A DNA stretch of 64,000 bases from Mariprofundus ferrinatatus (GCF_002795825.1 NZ_CP018800.1:744001-808000); one strand, 5' to 3'. Counted from the stretch's first letter, positions 2,083 through 5,299 are shown. Notes: generated from the letters alone by a model not told the origin. Program-made: numbers and translations.

Positions 2083-3429
2083 TCAAAAATCGCGTACAAA
2101 TGCTACCTTGCCATATGTTCTCTGATACCGATACAGATCAATGTTACACCGATTATCCACATGACCAAGCACGACCCTCGGTGCAAAGCCACCCACGCTT
2201 AACGCCAGAGGGGTAATGGCAAGCTCTATCGATTGCTTCTTTTCCTGCCTTTTTTTACCAAAGAAGGGATCAGCCAACGAATAACGGGTTTCCAGGTAAT
2301 CAAGCATCAACGAGGCATTCAGTTTCAAAGGGAGTTCCGCGGAGACCCCCGCTTTTGCTCCGGATGAGATGAAATTATAAATTTTATCGCGTGCCTTGTT
2401 CTGGCCGATGCTTGCTCCTGTATTCCACATGACACCACTCGCAGTCGCCCTGGAGATATCCAGTGTCAGCCAGTGCTGCCAGCCATCGCGGAGCGGGTAA
2501 TTGGGGTAACGCAGCTGTTTGCTCTCGATGGCGGGGTTCAGGGTCCAGCCACTGATTGTGCGATAGAGGTCAGAGATGCGGAATGCAGCCCCGTCGAACA
2601 GGTTGCGACCGCCATAGAATGCACCGTGCCAGCCTGCCTCAAAGGAGGTTGAGTGGCCCGGGCTCCACTGCATGGTCCAGCCGGCAAGCCCCATCAGGTA
2701 GGTGAGGTTATACTGGTTGGCAGAAGGGTGGTTCTGGTGTTCCAGGACTCCGCGCAGGCTGAATTGCCGCGACTCACCAAAGCGGTACTGCCCCTGCCAG
2801 TTTACACCGATACCTTTGCCGCTCTGCTGCCTTGCTGTGGGGCTTAAGACAAAGCGGCGACCGCCGATGATGACAGCTTCACTTGCCGTAGCCTGGTTAA
2901 CATTACTGTCGCCCAATATCTCGAATGAGAGGATCTGGCTGAAGGTGAGGCGTTCGATCTGGTTGATAAAGAGCAGCACATTTTTGCGCACCCCTTCTGG
3001 CAGGCCAGGTTCACCGAGCACACGTTGGAAGTGGTGCTGTGATGCCTCGGTGTCGCCGACCATGAACAGCGCTCGTGCAAGATCCAGCCGCACGCGCAAA
3101 ACTGCAGGATCACGCTCCAGCATGGCGCGGTAGAACTTGATGGCGCTGTTCCAGTCACCACGCAGTTCGGCAAGCTTGGCGGCGATAAACAGTGCCTGCA
3201 TCGGTGGATGCGGAAGCTTTAATAGTTCGTTCACGACAATCGATGCAAGATCGACTCTTCCTTCAACCAGCAGTTGTGTTGCTACCTGTGCAAGCTCTTC
3301 AGGCGTAGCCGTTGATTGGGCAGAAGAGGTGACTATCGTTCCCTGCTGCTGACTGAGACTATCTGATTGTTCAGCCATGGCTGCAAAGGGGATGATGATG
3401 GCAAGTATCAGCAGAATTCTAACAGCCAT
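2083..3429 (-). CDS. Slam-like outer-membrane translocator (TPR + DUF560 barrel)
   Basis: Resembles Slam (surface lipoprotein assembly modifier), the outer-membrane protein that moves TbpB-type barrel proteins to the surface. I chose the ATG at 3429, not the one at 3453, because GGAAGGAG sits just before it and it opens a clean signal peptide (MAVRILLILAIIIPFAAMA). Residues about 45-165 form TPR-type helical repeats (DWNSAIKFYRAMLERDP). The last 270 or so residues are barrel-like, with the family ending: FFGKKRQEKK, GGFAPRVVLGHVDN, YRYQRTYGKVAF and a C-terminal Phe. Length (448 aa) is normal for Slam. It follows the FecR/TbpB-barrel gene by 69 bp, so that protein is the obvious client. The family call is from motif memory, not a search. 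Confidence 0.85.
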   Translation of the reverse strand: MAVRILLILAIIIPFAAMAEQSDSLSQQQGTIVTSSAQSTATPEELAQVATQLLVEGRVDLASIVVNELLKLPHPPMQALFIAAKLAELRGDWNSAIKFYRAMLERDPAVLRVRLDLARALFMVGDTEASQHHFQRVLGEPGLPEGVRKNVLLFINQIERLTFSQILSFEILGDSNVNQATASEAVIIGGRRFVLSPTARQQSGKGIGVNWQGQYRFGESRQFSLRGVLEHQNHPSANQYNLTYLMGLAGWTMQWSPGHSTSFEAGWHGAFYGGRNLFDGAAFRISDLYRTISGWTLNPAIESKQLRYPNYPLRDGWQHWLTLDISRATASGVMWNTGASIGQNKARDKIYNFISSGAKAGVSAELPLKLNASLMLDYLETRYSLADPFFGKKRQEKKQSIELAITPLALSVGGFAPRVVLGHVDNRCNIDLYRYQRTYGKVAFVRDF

Positions 3430-3498
3430 ATTCTCCTTCCCTTTACCAAACATACGGCCCCTTATCGAGGCCGCATGGATGTAGATTAGGAATGTAAT

Positions 3499-5211
3499 CT
3501 ATTGCCCAACAAACAGGCCCTGCAAGCGCCCATTGGGGGCAGTTGCTTGTGTTGCGGTAAACGCACCTCCGATATTTTGTGCAGCAGGCCCGAAGAAAGC
3601 ACCCTTAACCTGTCCGGTATAAGTCGTGTCTTGACTGGTAATTCCCGCGGTAAAGGTGTTGCCGGTAATGGTGCCGGGAGCGCCACCAGTTAGCGAGAAG
3701 TTTAAGTTGTTGGCAGGCAGGGCAATATCATATGCGCCTGGTGCAATTTGGGCTCTTGTCGTGGTTCCTGTGGAGTTGAACTGCGTCACCTGATTGGCGC
3801 CGAAATTGACAGTAACCTGCAGGTTGGCATTGAACACGAAGTCATGATCAATAGCTGCTGGTGTAGAGTGAATCCAGCCCTGCGCGACCCCGTTATAGGT
3901 GGCGGCACCTGCAGGGAGGGCGTTAACTGGCGTCAGGGTTCCCATGGCGCCATAGCCTGCAAGCCAGTTGTTAGCCGTATTGTCGAGTTGCACGCCCCAG
4001 TGGAACAGGTCCACATATTGATATCCAGTAATAGCAACATAGGGACCTACCTGGTTAAAGACTATGTCCGAGTTGGCAAGCGGGGCAGTGGTTGCAGGGG
4101 TTCCAGCTGCTCCAAGGGTAAGCCTGTTTGGTTCAAGTGGAACCGCCTGATTGAAGGTGTAAGTGAAGGGGCCATTATATGATCCTGCAGGCGCGCCAGC
4201 AGGAATGCTGAACGTACCGTTGATTGTGACACTGGTGATGTTGTTGCCTGCATCACGTGTTACTGTGATCTGATGGTTGGCATCGGGGCCTGTTGCCAGC
4301 CCGTTGGGGGAAGCTAGTCCACCTGCAGGCAACATGGTGTACCATTGCTGCTGAACGTAAATCGAGCTTTCTGCAGTAACCGTGGGGCCTGCGCCCGGAA
4401 GTGCATTGGCAGGAGTCCCTCCGCTTGAGGTGCTCATGCCAACAGTAACGCCTCCAATGGCGAGAATACCTACGGCGGCAGCTGTTTCACCAATAGCAGT
4501 CGTTTCCGCTAATACTTCGGCACCAGGTCCCTGGGGCGGAGTTGAATCCCCCGCTGTTGGCATAGTGATCTCTGTCGCCTCAATTAGCTGATCAAGAAGC
4601 TTTGGATCGGTAGGGCTTGGCGGAGTCGGGGGCTGCCCCTGGCTGACATCCACGGTTTGTCCGACAGCACACATCTGCGCGCCGGCTACGCCAGGATCGA
4701 TATTCCTGATCTCTACCTGACCCTGATTGCATACAAATCGTGTGATGTTTCCCATCACGACAGTAAAAAAGTCGGTGCCTCGAACCGCTGCTACTGCCGT
4801 CGGGGTCCTCACTTCAAATTGGGTTTCTCCGGCATCGGTATGGTGGACAATTGAGCGCAAGGTGCCACGCAGTACTTTCAGAGAGCCGTTTTTTAACTTG
4901 CTCTCATCAAACATGAAGTTGGTGATCTCAATCTGGGAGGAGGATGCGATCCTGAGCACGGTTTCGTCGATAAAAGTAACCTGTGCCCTGGAGCGCTCGA
5001 GCGTGGTTACAAGATCGTTGAGTTCAACACCACTGCCTACCTCTGCCTTGACCGGTTCGGATGCTCCCGTCCTGAGATGTTGAACCTCGTTAAGTGTTGC
5101 TGAAATTTCACCAACGGCTTCTGAATAAGCTGAAGCGGGCATGGCAAGTATTGAAATGGCAAATGCCAGAGTTATCTGAATCATGGATTGATGGCGATAG
5201 AACTTGAACAC
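3499..5211 (-). CDS. Secreted FecR-domain protein with TbpB-like C-terminal barrel
   Basis: A 570-residue exported protein starting at GTG 5211; GAGGAGGAAA lies 2 bases upstream and no better start is visible. A signal peptide ends near residue 28 (ILAMPASA) and lacks a lipobox Cys. Residues about 60-165 form a FecR domain with the signature TPTAVAAVRGTDF (137-149). A Pro/Ala/Thr-rich linker follows, with a hydrophobic stretch near 240-262. The C-terminal half is low-complexity beta structure with TbpB/Slam-client hallmarks: LPAGAATYNGVAQGW and GAFFGPAAQNIGGAF near 537-551, and the end RLQGLFVGQ. FecR domains normally relay envelope signals. TbpB-type barrels are what Slam proteins recognise, and a Slam-like gene is next. 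This is probably a surface-exposed or released FecR protein. Ligand unknown. Confidence 0.85.
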   Translation of the reverse strand: MFKFYRHQSMIQITLAFAISILAMPASAYSEAVGEISATLNEVQHLRTGASEPVKAEVGSGVELNDLVTTLERSRAQVTFIDETVLRIASSSQIEITNFMFDESKLKNGSLKVLRGTLRSIVHHTDAGETQFEVRTPTAVAAVRGTDFFTVVMGNITRFVCNQGQVEIRNIDPGVAGAQMCAVGQTVDVSQGQPPTPPSPTDPKLLDQLIEATEITMPTAGDSTPPQGPGAEVLAETTAIGETAAAVGILAIGGVTVGMSTSSGGTPANALPGAGPTVTAESSIYVQQQWYTMLPAGGLASPNGLATGPDANHQITVTRDAGNNITSVTINGTFSIPAGAPAGSYNGPFTYTFNQAVPLEPNRLTLGAAGTPATTAPLANSDIVFNQVGPYVAITGYQYVDLFHWGVQLDNTANNWLAGYGAMGTLTPVNALPAGAATYNGVAQGWIHSTPAAIDHDFVFNANLQVTVNFGANQVTQFNSTGTTTRAQIAPGAYDIALPANNLNFSLTGGAPGTITGNTFTAGITSQDTTYTGQVKGAFFGPAAQNIGGAFTATQATAPNGRLQGLFVGQ

Positions 5212-5299
5212 TCTTTCCTCCTCAAATCAAACCGTATAGCCAACGAGGCGCTTATTAAAATTGAATGACGTGATTCCCTTTCCTCTATCCAGTGCAACT

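Follow-up and report, generated by a model that had tools for sequence, protein, structure and literature searches.

The 64,000-nucleotide stretch of Mariprofundus ferrinatatus DNA analysed here (NZ_CP018800.1:744001-808000; hereafter the window) carries three consecutive minus-strand genes, transcribed in the order FecR-barrel protein, Slam-type outer-membrane protein (OMP) and CHASE2 adenylate cyclase. From their sequences, they probably form a trans-envelope cyclic AMP (cAMP) signalling operon, in which the outer-membrane component has been replaced by a translocon of the type 11 secretion system (T11SS; Slam/DUF560) and the FecR protein has gained the matching cargo barrel. We consider it very likely that the first two genes encode a real cargo-translocon pair. 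Passage of the C-terminal half of the FecR-barrel protein across the outer membrane is likely on balance, and coupling of the state of this protein to the cyclase is evenly poised. A first-pass annotation of the window had described a 570-residue FecR protein with a signal peptide and no lipobox, two TbpB-type motifs in its C-terminal domain, a 448-residue neighbour combining tetratricopeptide repeats (TPR) with a barrel, and a nucleotide cyclase alongside, all in a free-living organism; this gene-level description, coordinates included, was borne out.

The C-terminal domain of the FecR-barrel protein matched the TbpB_B_D family (PF01298) above its cut-off (Table 1), as the first-pass annotation had anticipated. 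Because PF01298 passes only in the window protein, we trained our own cargo hidden Markov model (HMM) on eleven proteins of cargo type encoded at Slam loci, none of them a FecR protein. The HMM gave 51.9 bits for the window protein, 26-33 bits for its three orthologues and 30.9 bits for a second FecR protein, from locus L094, with no significant match to FecR proteins lacking the barrel (untagged). In hhalign, the four FecR C-termini aligned with the cargo set over 167 columns (Prob 97.8, E 8.6e-13). Since the proteins of this set had been chosen by their GxFFGP...GG motif, the motif was cut off in a control, and the score was then 38, compared with at most 9.5 in 30 column shuffles. A search of the PDB with the cargo profile found TbpB, LbpB and GNA2132 (NHBA), with weaker matches to hemophilin and factor H binding protein (fHbp), all of them known T11SS cargo. 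Direct PDB searches with the FecR-barrel protein or its C-terminus returned nothing meaningful, and matches were reached only via a joint profile with known cargo. We conclude that the protein ends in a predicted T11SS cargo barrel.

The product of the adjacent gene matched both SlipAM (PF04575) and TPR_Slam (PF24575) above their cut-offs, and in the whole-genome search the SlipAM family was matched from position 10 to the family end. The orthologue at L071 reached 31.1 bits for TPR_Slam, under the cut-off of 35.2. The Slam gene adjoins the gene of the TbpB-barrel protein in four genomes. Moreover, the complete 2.3-Mb genome of M. ferrinatatus has a single match to each of the FecR, SlipAM and TbpB_B_D families, all of them in these two adjacent genes, and we confirmed that this coincidence exceeds chance. 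An accidental pairing of an ordinary FecR protein, whose tail is rich in beta structure, with an unrelated porin would fit the modest TbpB_B_D score (30.3 bits) and the orthologues that fall under the family cut-off. Such a chance neighbourhood is opposed by the independent cargo HMM, by the hhalign comparison with its shuffled and motif-free controls, by the single-copy coincidence, and by the four conserved operons and a second lineage described below, which makes its probability close to negligible.

The FecR-barrel protein consists, from its N-terminus, of a signal peptide, the FecR domain, a hydrophobic stretch, a beta-rich region and the TbpB-type barrel. The N-terminus is of the Sec type (MFKFYRHQSMIQITLAFAISILAMPASA/YS), without a lipobox cysteine, and Sec signal peptides were likewise predicted, by eye from the sequence, in 4/4 orthologues. 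The Ala/Gly-rich hydrophobic stretch has a mean Kyte-Doolittle value of 1.7, and of 1.66-1.96 in the three orthologues. Three known FecR or Slam-related classes were considered and rejected for this protein. By Pfam, neither the FecR-barrel protein nor the seven neighbouring genes scanned contain an anti-sigma domain, an extracytoplasmic function (ECF) sigma factor or a TonB receptor, so a FecIRA-type anti-sigma regulator was set aside. The LapA-type retention module (NF033682, which needs more than 50 bits) gave no HMM match to the window protein, and 22-31 bits for some other FecR proteins. The Slam-dependent surface lipoprotein family NF041636 needs more than 80 bits and a lipobox, and the window protein does not belong to it because it scores 26.5 bits and has no cysteine.

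The third gene encodes a protein with CHASE2 (PF05226, 173.7 bits) and Guanylate_cyc (PF00211, 91 bits) domains. It has the residues typical of active adenylate cyclases, namely the metal-binding aspartates in FSDVRG and GDEI, the lysine in LDKF, the aspartate in MDYT, and the asparagine and arginine in NLGARVE. Proteins that bind cyclic nucleotide monophosphates (cNMP) are numerous in the genome. The neighbouring genes scanned around the operon include neither a TonB receptor nor another uptake gene, and nothing links the FecR-barrel/Slam pair to iron or haem capture. In one rival explanation, the whole protein is a plain ligand catcher, secreted or surface-bound: a soluble cargo of the T11SS, comparable to hemophilin, in which FecR forms the head that binds the ligand, the cyclase being merely co-regulated. 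Unlipidated cargo with a single barrel and a signal peptidase I (SPI) signal is a known T11SS class (PMC8406197), and FecR domains occur in Leptospira surface proteins, with weak, sub-cut-off similarity to the Lsa33/LipL45/Lsa19 models. Such a plain ligand catcher is nevertheless quite improbable, given the lack of an uptake gene beside the operon and the pairing of FecR with CHASE2; since this pairing also occurs without the tag, across phyla (PMC9239204), the cyclase is unlikely to be a bystander.

Mariprofundus belongs to the Zetaproteobacteria and comprises free-living, microaerophilic Fe(II)-oxidisers (PMC5513912). The order FecR-barrel protein, Slam, CHASE2 cyclase is kept in four genomes of the genus (G000, G001, G011 and G015; loci L003, L071, L072 and L073), with the cyclase directly downstream of Slam in each, which is the conserved adjacency that the first-pass annotation would count as support. 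Identity across the four operons is about 60% for FecR, 70-85% for Slam and 73-82% for the cyclase. Other Mariprofundus and family members have a TPR-porin (510-580 residues), followed by a FecR protein of about 300-380 residues without a barrel and a CHASE2 cyclase (L074, L075, L077, L079); the TPR-porins of the untagged modules in the genus mostly have no SlipAM match. Phylogenetic trees place the cyclase and the FecR domain of the window type among the Zetaproteobacterial modules, L076 being closest, with the FecR-domain tree built on a short alignment and weakly supported. Grouping the window-type Slam with the Zetaproteobacterial OMPs and porins was rejected (approximately unbiased (AU) test, p = 0.0009). 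Because the FecR domain and the cyclase group with the untagged form and the Slam does not, the barrel tag and the Slam were apparently added together to a resident cAMP module. Most simply, a T11SS OMP would have taken the place of the resident porin, and FecR would have acquired the corresponding cargo tag at the same time. The porins of the untagged modules may themselves be Slam homologues. By hhalign, the barrels of these untagged-module porins matched canonical Slams with E 2.5e-23, a value obtained without an unrelated-porin control, and the match of type A with type B was weak (E 1.5e-4).

A single-sequence scan of genome contigs with the FecR-barrel protein found no relatives, and a profile scan found only the orthologue from Mariprofundus sp. 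KV and one deltaproteobacterial FecR. No relatives of this protein were found in viral contigs and plasmids; the plasmid search returned two distant Slams. We also observed further gene layouts at other FecR/CHASE2 loci. At L074:6894-10248 (G003), the CHASE2 cyclase is split over two frames (508 and 320 residues), with a 307-residue open reading frame (ORF) across the junction. At L076:3984-6137 (G026) and L117:7821-10424 (G322), a large extra gene lies between FecR and the cyclase; the L076 product is a putative lipoprotein that combines Ig-like domains with propeller domains of the lactonase type.

The C-terminal half of the FecR-barrel protein is mosaic between Mariprofundus species. For Slam (85%), the cyclase (82%) and FecR residues 1-275, the smallest distance is that between the window and L072 (G011); in this part of FecR, site patterns uniting window and L072, window and KV, and L072 and KV numbered 68, 18 and 26. 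For residues 276-570 the counts were 16, 51 and 50, a reversal with Fisher p 8e-14. The shift recurs at codons whose amino acid is shared by the three species, from 51/15/21 to 16/24/12 (p 0.0017). Between G001 and KV, the C-terminal half is 97-98% identical and the FecR half 92%. Because the C-terminal half is thus not fast-evolving between these two, its exchange in the lineage of the window or of L072 appears to be the simplest account. The switch falls just past the conserved Ala/Gly-rich hydrophobic stretch. As expected, domain exchange suits an exposed C-terminal part joined to a constant FecR half, and the same pattern fits equally well with FecR staying inside.

In the mechanism that we propose, Sec would carry the FecR-barrel protein over the inner membrane, and the Slam protein would recognise its barrel, so that at least the C-terminal half would be displayed at, or released from, the cell surface. 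The FecR domain would cooperate with the CHASE2 sensor, so that cAMP output would follow from the protein's state of export or ligand binding and could be read by the many cNMP-binding proteins of the genome. FecR itself may be carried outside. A more specific version, which is conceivable but doubtful, is a cargo of split topology: the barrel half would reach the surface by way of Slam, and the FecR half, retained in the periplasm by the hydrophobic stretch between the two, would act together with the cyclase. The cAMP level would then depend on whether the outer half is exported, occupied or lost.

Docking without export is a further rival explanation. Here the protein stays in the periplasm, its barrel serves as a handle for a Slam-type OMP that acts as the surface receptor, and FecR relays to CHASE2. 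It is in keeping with the related modules, which pair a tagless FecR with a TPR-porin and a CHASE2 cyclase, with FecR and cyclase travelling together in trees, and with Sinorhizobium meliloti, in which the OMP NsrA works with inner-membrane cyclases (PMC7529298). We consider it unlikely: the exchange of the C-terminal half between species is in keeping with an exposed position, tags of this kind are known to direct export (PMC8406197), and the Slam stands apart from the resident Zetaproteobacterial OMPs in the AU test.

We must also note several points that weigh against a cargo-bearing signalling operon. PF01298 exceeds its cut-off in the window protein alone among the four orthologues, with 14.4 bits at L072 and no match at L071 or L073, and the barrel in the three orthologues rests on our own HMM and hhalign. 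AlphaFold models of residues 275-570 and 395-570 had pLDDT (predicted local distance difference test) values of 35 and 40, from alignments of two sequences only (window and L091). Grouping the window-type Slam with all FecR-linked OMPs together was not rejected (AU p 0.376), and the gap 5' of the cyclase gene is 110 bases long. We know of no characterised T11SS cargo that signals via an inner-membrane enzyme. In S. meliloti, moreover, a FecR protein from a cAMP target gene was dispensable for signal perception (PMC5498481).

Outside the Zetaproteobacteria, a clear FecR gene lies on the same strand at most three genes away at 8/52 SlipAM-type loci (L088, L094, L105, L106, L117, L126, L129 and L130), so FecR and Slam-family OMPs meet repeatedly. 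A recognisable cargo barrel was present in only one of these eight, L094 (G222). Its 1152-residue protein has FecR at 111-212 and the barrel at 1020-1128 (TbpB_B_D 21.6 bits; slam_lipo 37.2 bits), and is followed by an untagged FecR copy (285 residues, 63% identical to the FecR part) and then by Slam. G438 encodes a protein 60% identical to this FecR-barrel protein. With the G222/G438 system, the FecR-barrel/Slam link is therefore present in at least two lineages. The tagged and untagged FecR with Slam at L094:882-6882 look as if one FecR were exported and the other periplasmic.

Other loci showed further arrangements. In a third Slam arrangement, a Slam OMP accompanies a FecR-like/TPR protein (415-442 residues) and a separate large protein with weak C-terminal TbpB_B_D matches (L087:5554-10291 in G105, L107:8587-13256 in G138 and L109:1913-7500 in G166), and its three OMPs fall into a single clade. 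On contig G133:C60 (L005, L011, L015-L023), long frames resembling T11SS cargo follow one another, with lengths of up to 676, 972 and 1770 residues and several TbpB_B_D domains in each. G153 and G386 (L157, L158) have at least 10 TbpB_B_D matches per genome versus a single weak SlipAM match, so that numerous candidate cargo proteins would share one translocon with a poor family match.

The features of the operon are collected in Table 1. The FecR and Slam genes are separated by 69 bases and the Slam and cyclase genes by 110 bases, and the position of the Shine-Dalgarno sequence favours Met9 (3429) as the Slam start. The hairpin in the first gap overlaps the first possible Slam start codon and could tune Slam expression.

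Table 1. Features of the FecR-barrel/Slam/CHASE2 operon, in window positions.
Feature	Position	Strand	Remarks
CHASE2 adenylate cyclase, 688 residues	1..1972	(-)	cut by window edge; whole gene L003:7906-9972
Slam/T11SS OMP, 448 residues from Met9	2083..3429	(-)	ORF to 3453, 456 residues
SlipAM beta-barrel, best Pfam stretch	2086..2643	(-)	PF04575 60.0 bits, cut-off 22
Periplasmic TPR_Slam domain	3028..3324	(-)	PF24575 40.4 bits, cut-off 35.2
Imperfect hairpin, FecR-Slam gap	3452..3476	(-)	ATGCGGCC...GGCCGTAT, read from sequence
FecR-barrel protein, 570 residues	3499..5211	(-)	GTG start
C-terminal half mosaic between species, residues ~290-570	3502..4344	(-)	site patterns reverse near residue 290
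Predicted TbpB-type (T11SS cargo) barrel, residues 434-556	3544..3912	(-)	PF01298 30.3 bits, cut-off 26
Motif GAFFGPAAQNIGGAF, residues 537-551	3559..3603	(-)	aligned to the T11SS cargo motif GxFFGPxAxExGGxF
Ala/Gly-rich hydrophobic stretch, residues 239-257	4441..4497	(-)	joins FecR part to C-terminal half
FecR domain, residues 67-167	4711..5013	(-)	PF04773 51.7 bits, cut-off 24
Sec signal peptide, residues 1-28	5128..5211	(-)	judged by eye from sequence
Shine-Dalgarno AGGAGG of FecR-barrel gene	5217-5222		five bases 5' of GTG start

If our reading is right, the T11SS gains a type of cargo that signals, and CHASE2 sensors gain a concrete, testable partner. The concerted change, with Slam in, the porin out and the barrel tag gained, would be a natural experiment on what makes a Slam substrate. 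The split topology, if true, would amount to secretion-coupled second-messenger signalling through the T11SS.

The window operon shares with the T11SS a TPR_Slam plus SlipAM OMP encoded beside a protein that has a Sec signal, carries a TbpB-type barrel at its C-terminus and lacks a lipobox, as does the soluble cargo class of hemophilin and HrpC (PMC8406197). It differs in having an N-terminal FecR domain instead of a host-binding head, in ending with a CHASE2 adenylate cyclase, and in belonging to a free-living Fe(II)-oxidiser. The large T11SS surveys PMC8406197 and PMC12282271 are silent on FecR, CHASE2 and cyclases in their main texts, and FecR together with DUF560, T11SS or TbpBBD had no match in the main texts of openly licensed papers. 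Clusters of a CHASE2 cyclase, a FecR protein and a TPR protein have been reported in Campylobacterota (PMC9239204), and these, like the untagged Zetaproteobacterial modules, share the FecR domain and the CHASE2 cyclase with our operon; the trees join it to the Zetaproteobacterial ones. In the untagged Zetaproteobacterial modules the FecR tail is short and often Pro-rich, and a longer TPR-porin precedes FecR, whereas the window operon combines a FecR protein ending in a cargo barrel with a Slam as its OMP, in a different gene order.

NsrA with CyaK/CyaD1D2 of S. meliloti is a precedent for sensing by an OMP and inner-membrane cyclases, in that the signalling route to cAMP consists of a barrel protein in the outer membrane and adenylate cyclases in the inner one; the difference is that NsrA has been described as a receptor and has no T11SS cargo (PMC7529298). 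With the FecI-FecR-FecA iron-citrate system, the window protein has only the PF04773 domain in common; it has a cleavable signal peptide instead of an anti-sigma N-terminal domain, and its scanned neighbours include neither an ECF sigma factor nor a TonB receptor. The LysM-FecR operon of Burkholderia also pairs a FecR protein that has a signal peptide with a CHASE2 sensor, but its output is a histidine kinase, it has a LysM domain and it lacks Slam (PMC5192318). The first-pass annotation had seen a new kind of system. The barrel match, Slam match and conserved adjacency that it named as support are there, and so is the novelty of placing a T11SS pair in such a module; the export of FecR can only be inferred, and the FecR-OMP-CHASE2 module itself is known, tagless, from other Zetaproteobacteria and Campylobacterota (PMC9239204). 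In a few marine iron oxidisers, a sensor protein usually found next to a cAMP-producing enzyme has acquired the export tag of the surface proteins by which pathogens take iron, along with the corresponding pore; our comparison suggests that an export route has thereby become part of a signalling circuit. The operon is best read as joining a T11SS cargo-translocon pair to a known FecR-CHASE2 module, and not as a categorically new system, because the FecR-CHASE2 pairing was already known (PMC9239204; PMC5192318, with a histidine kinase).

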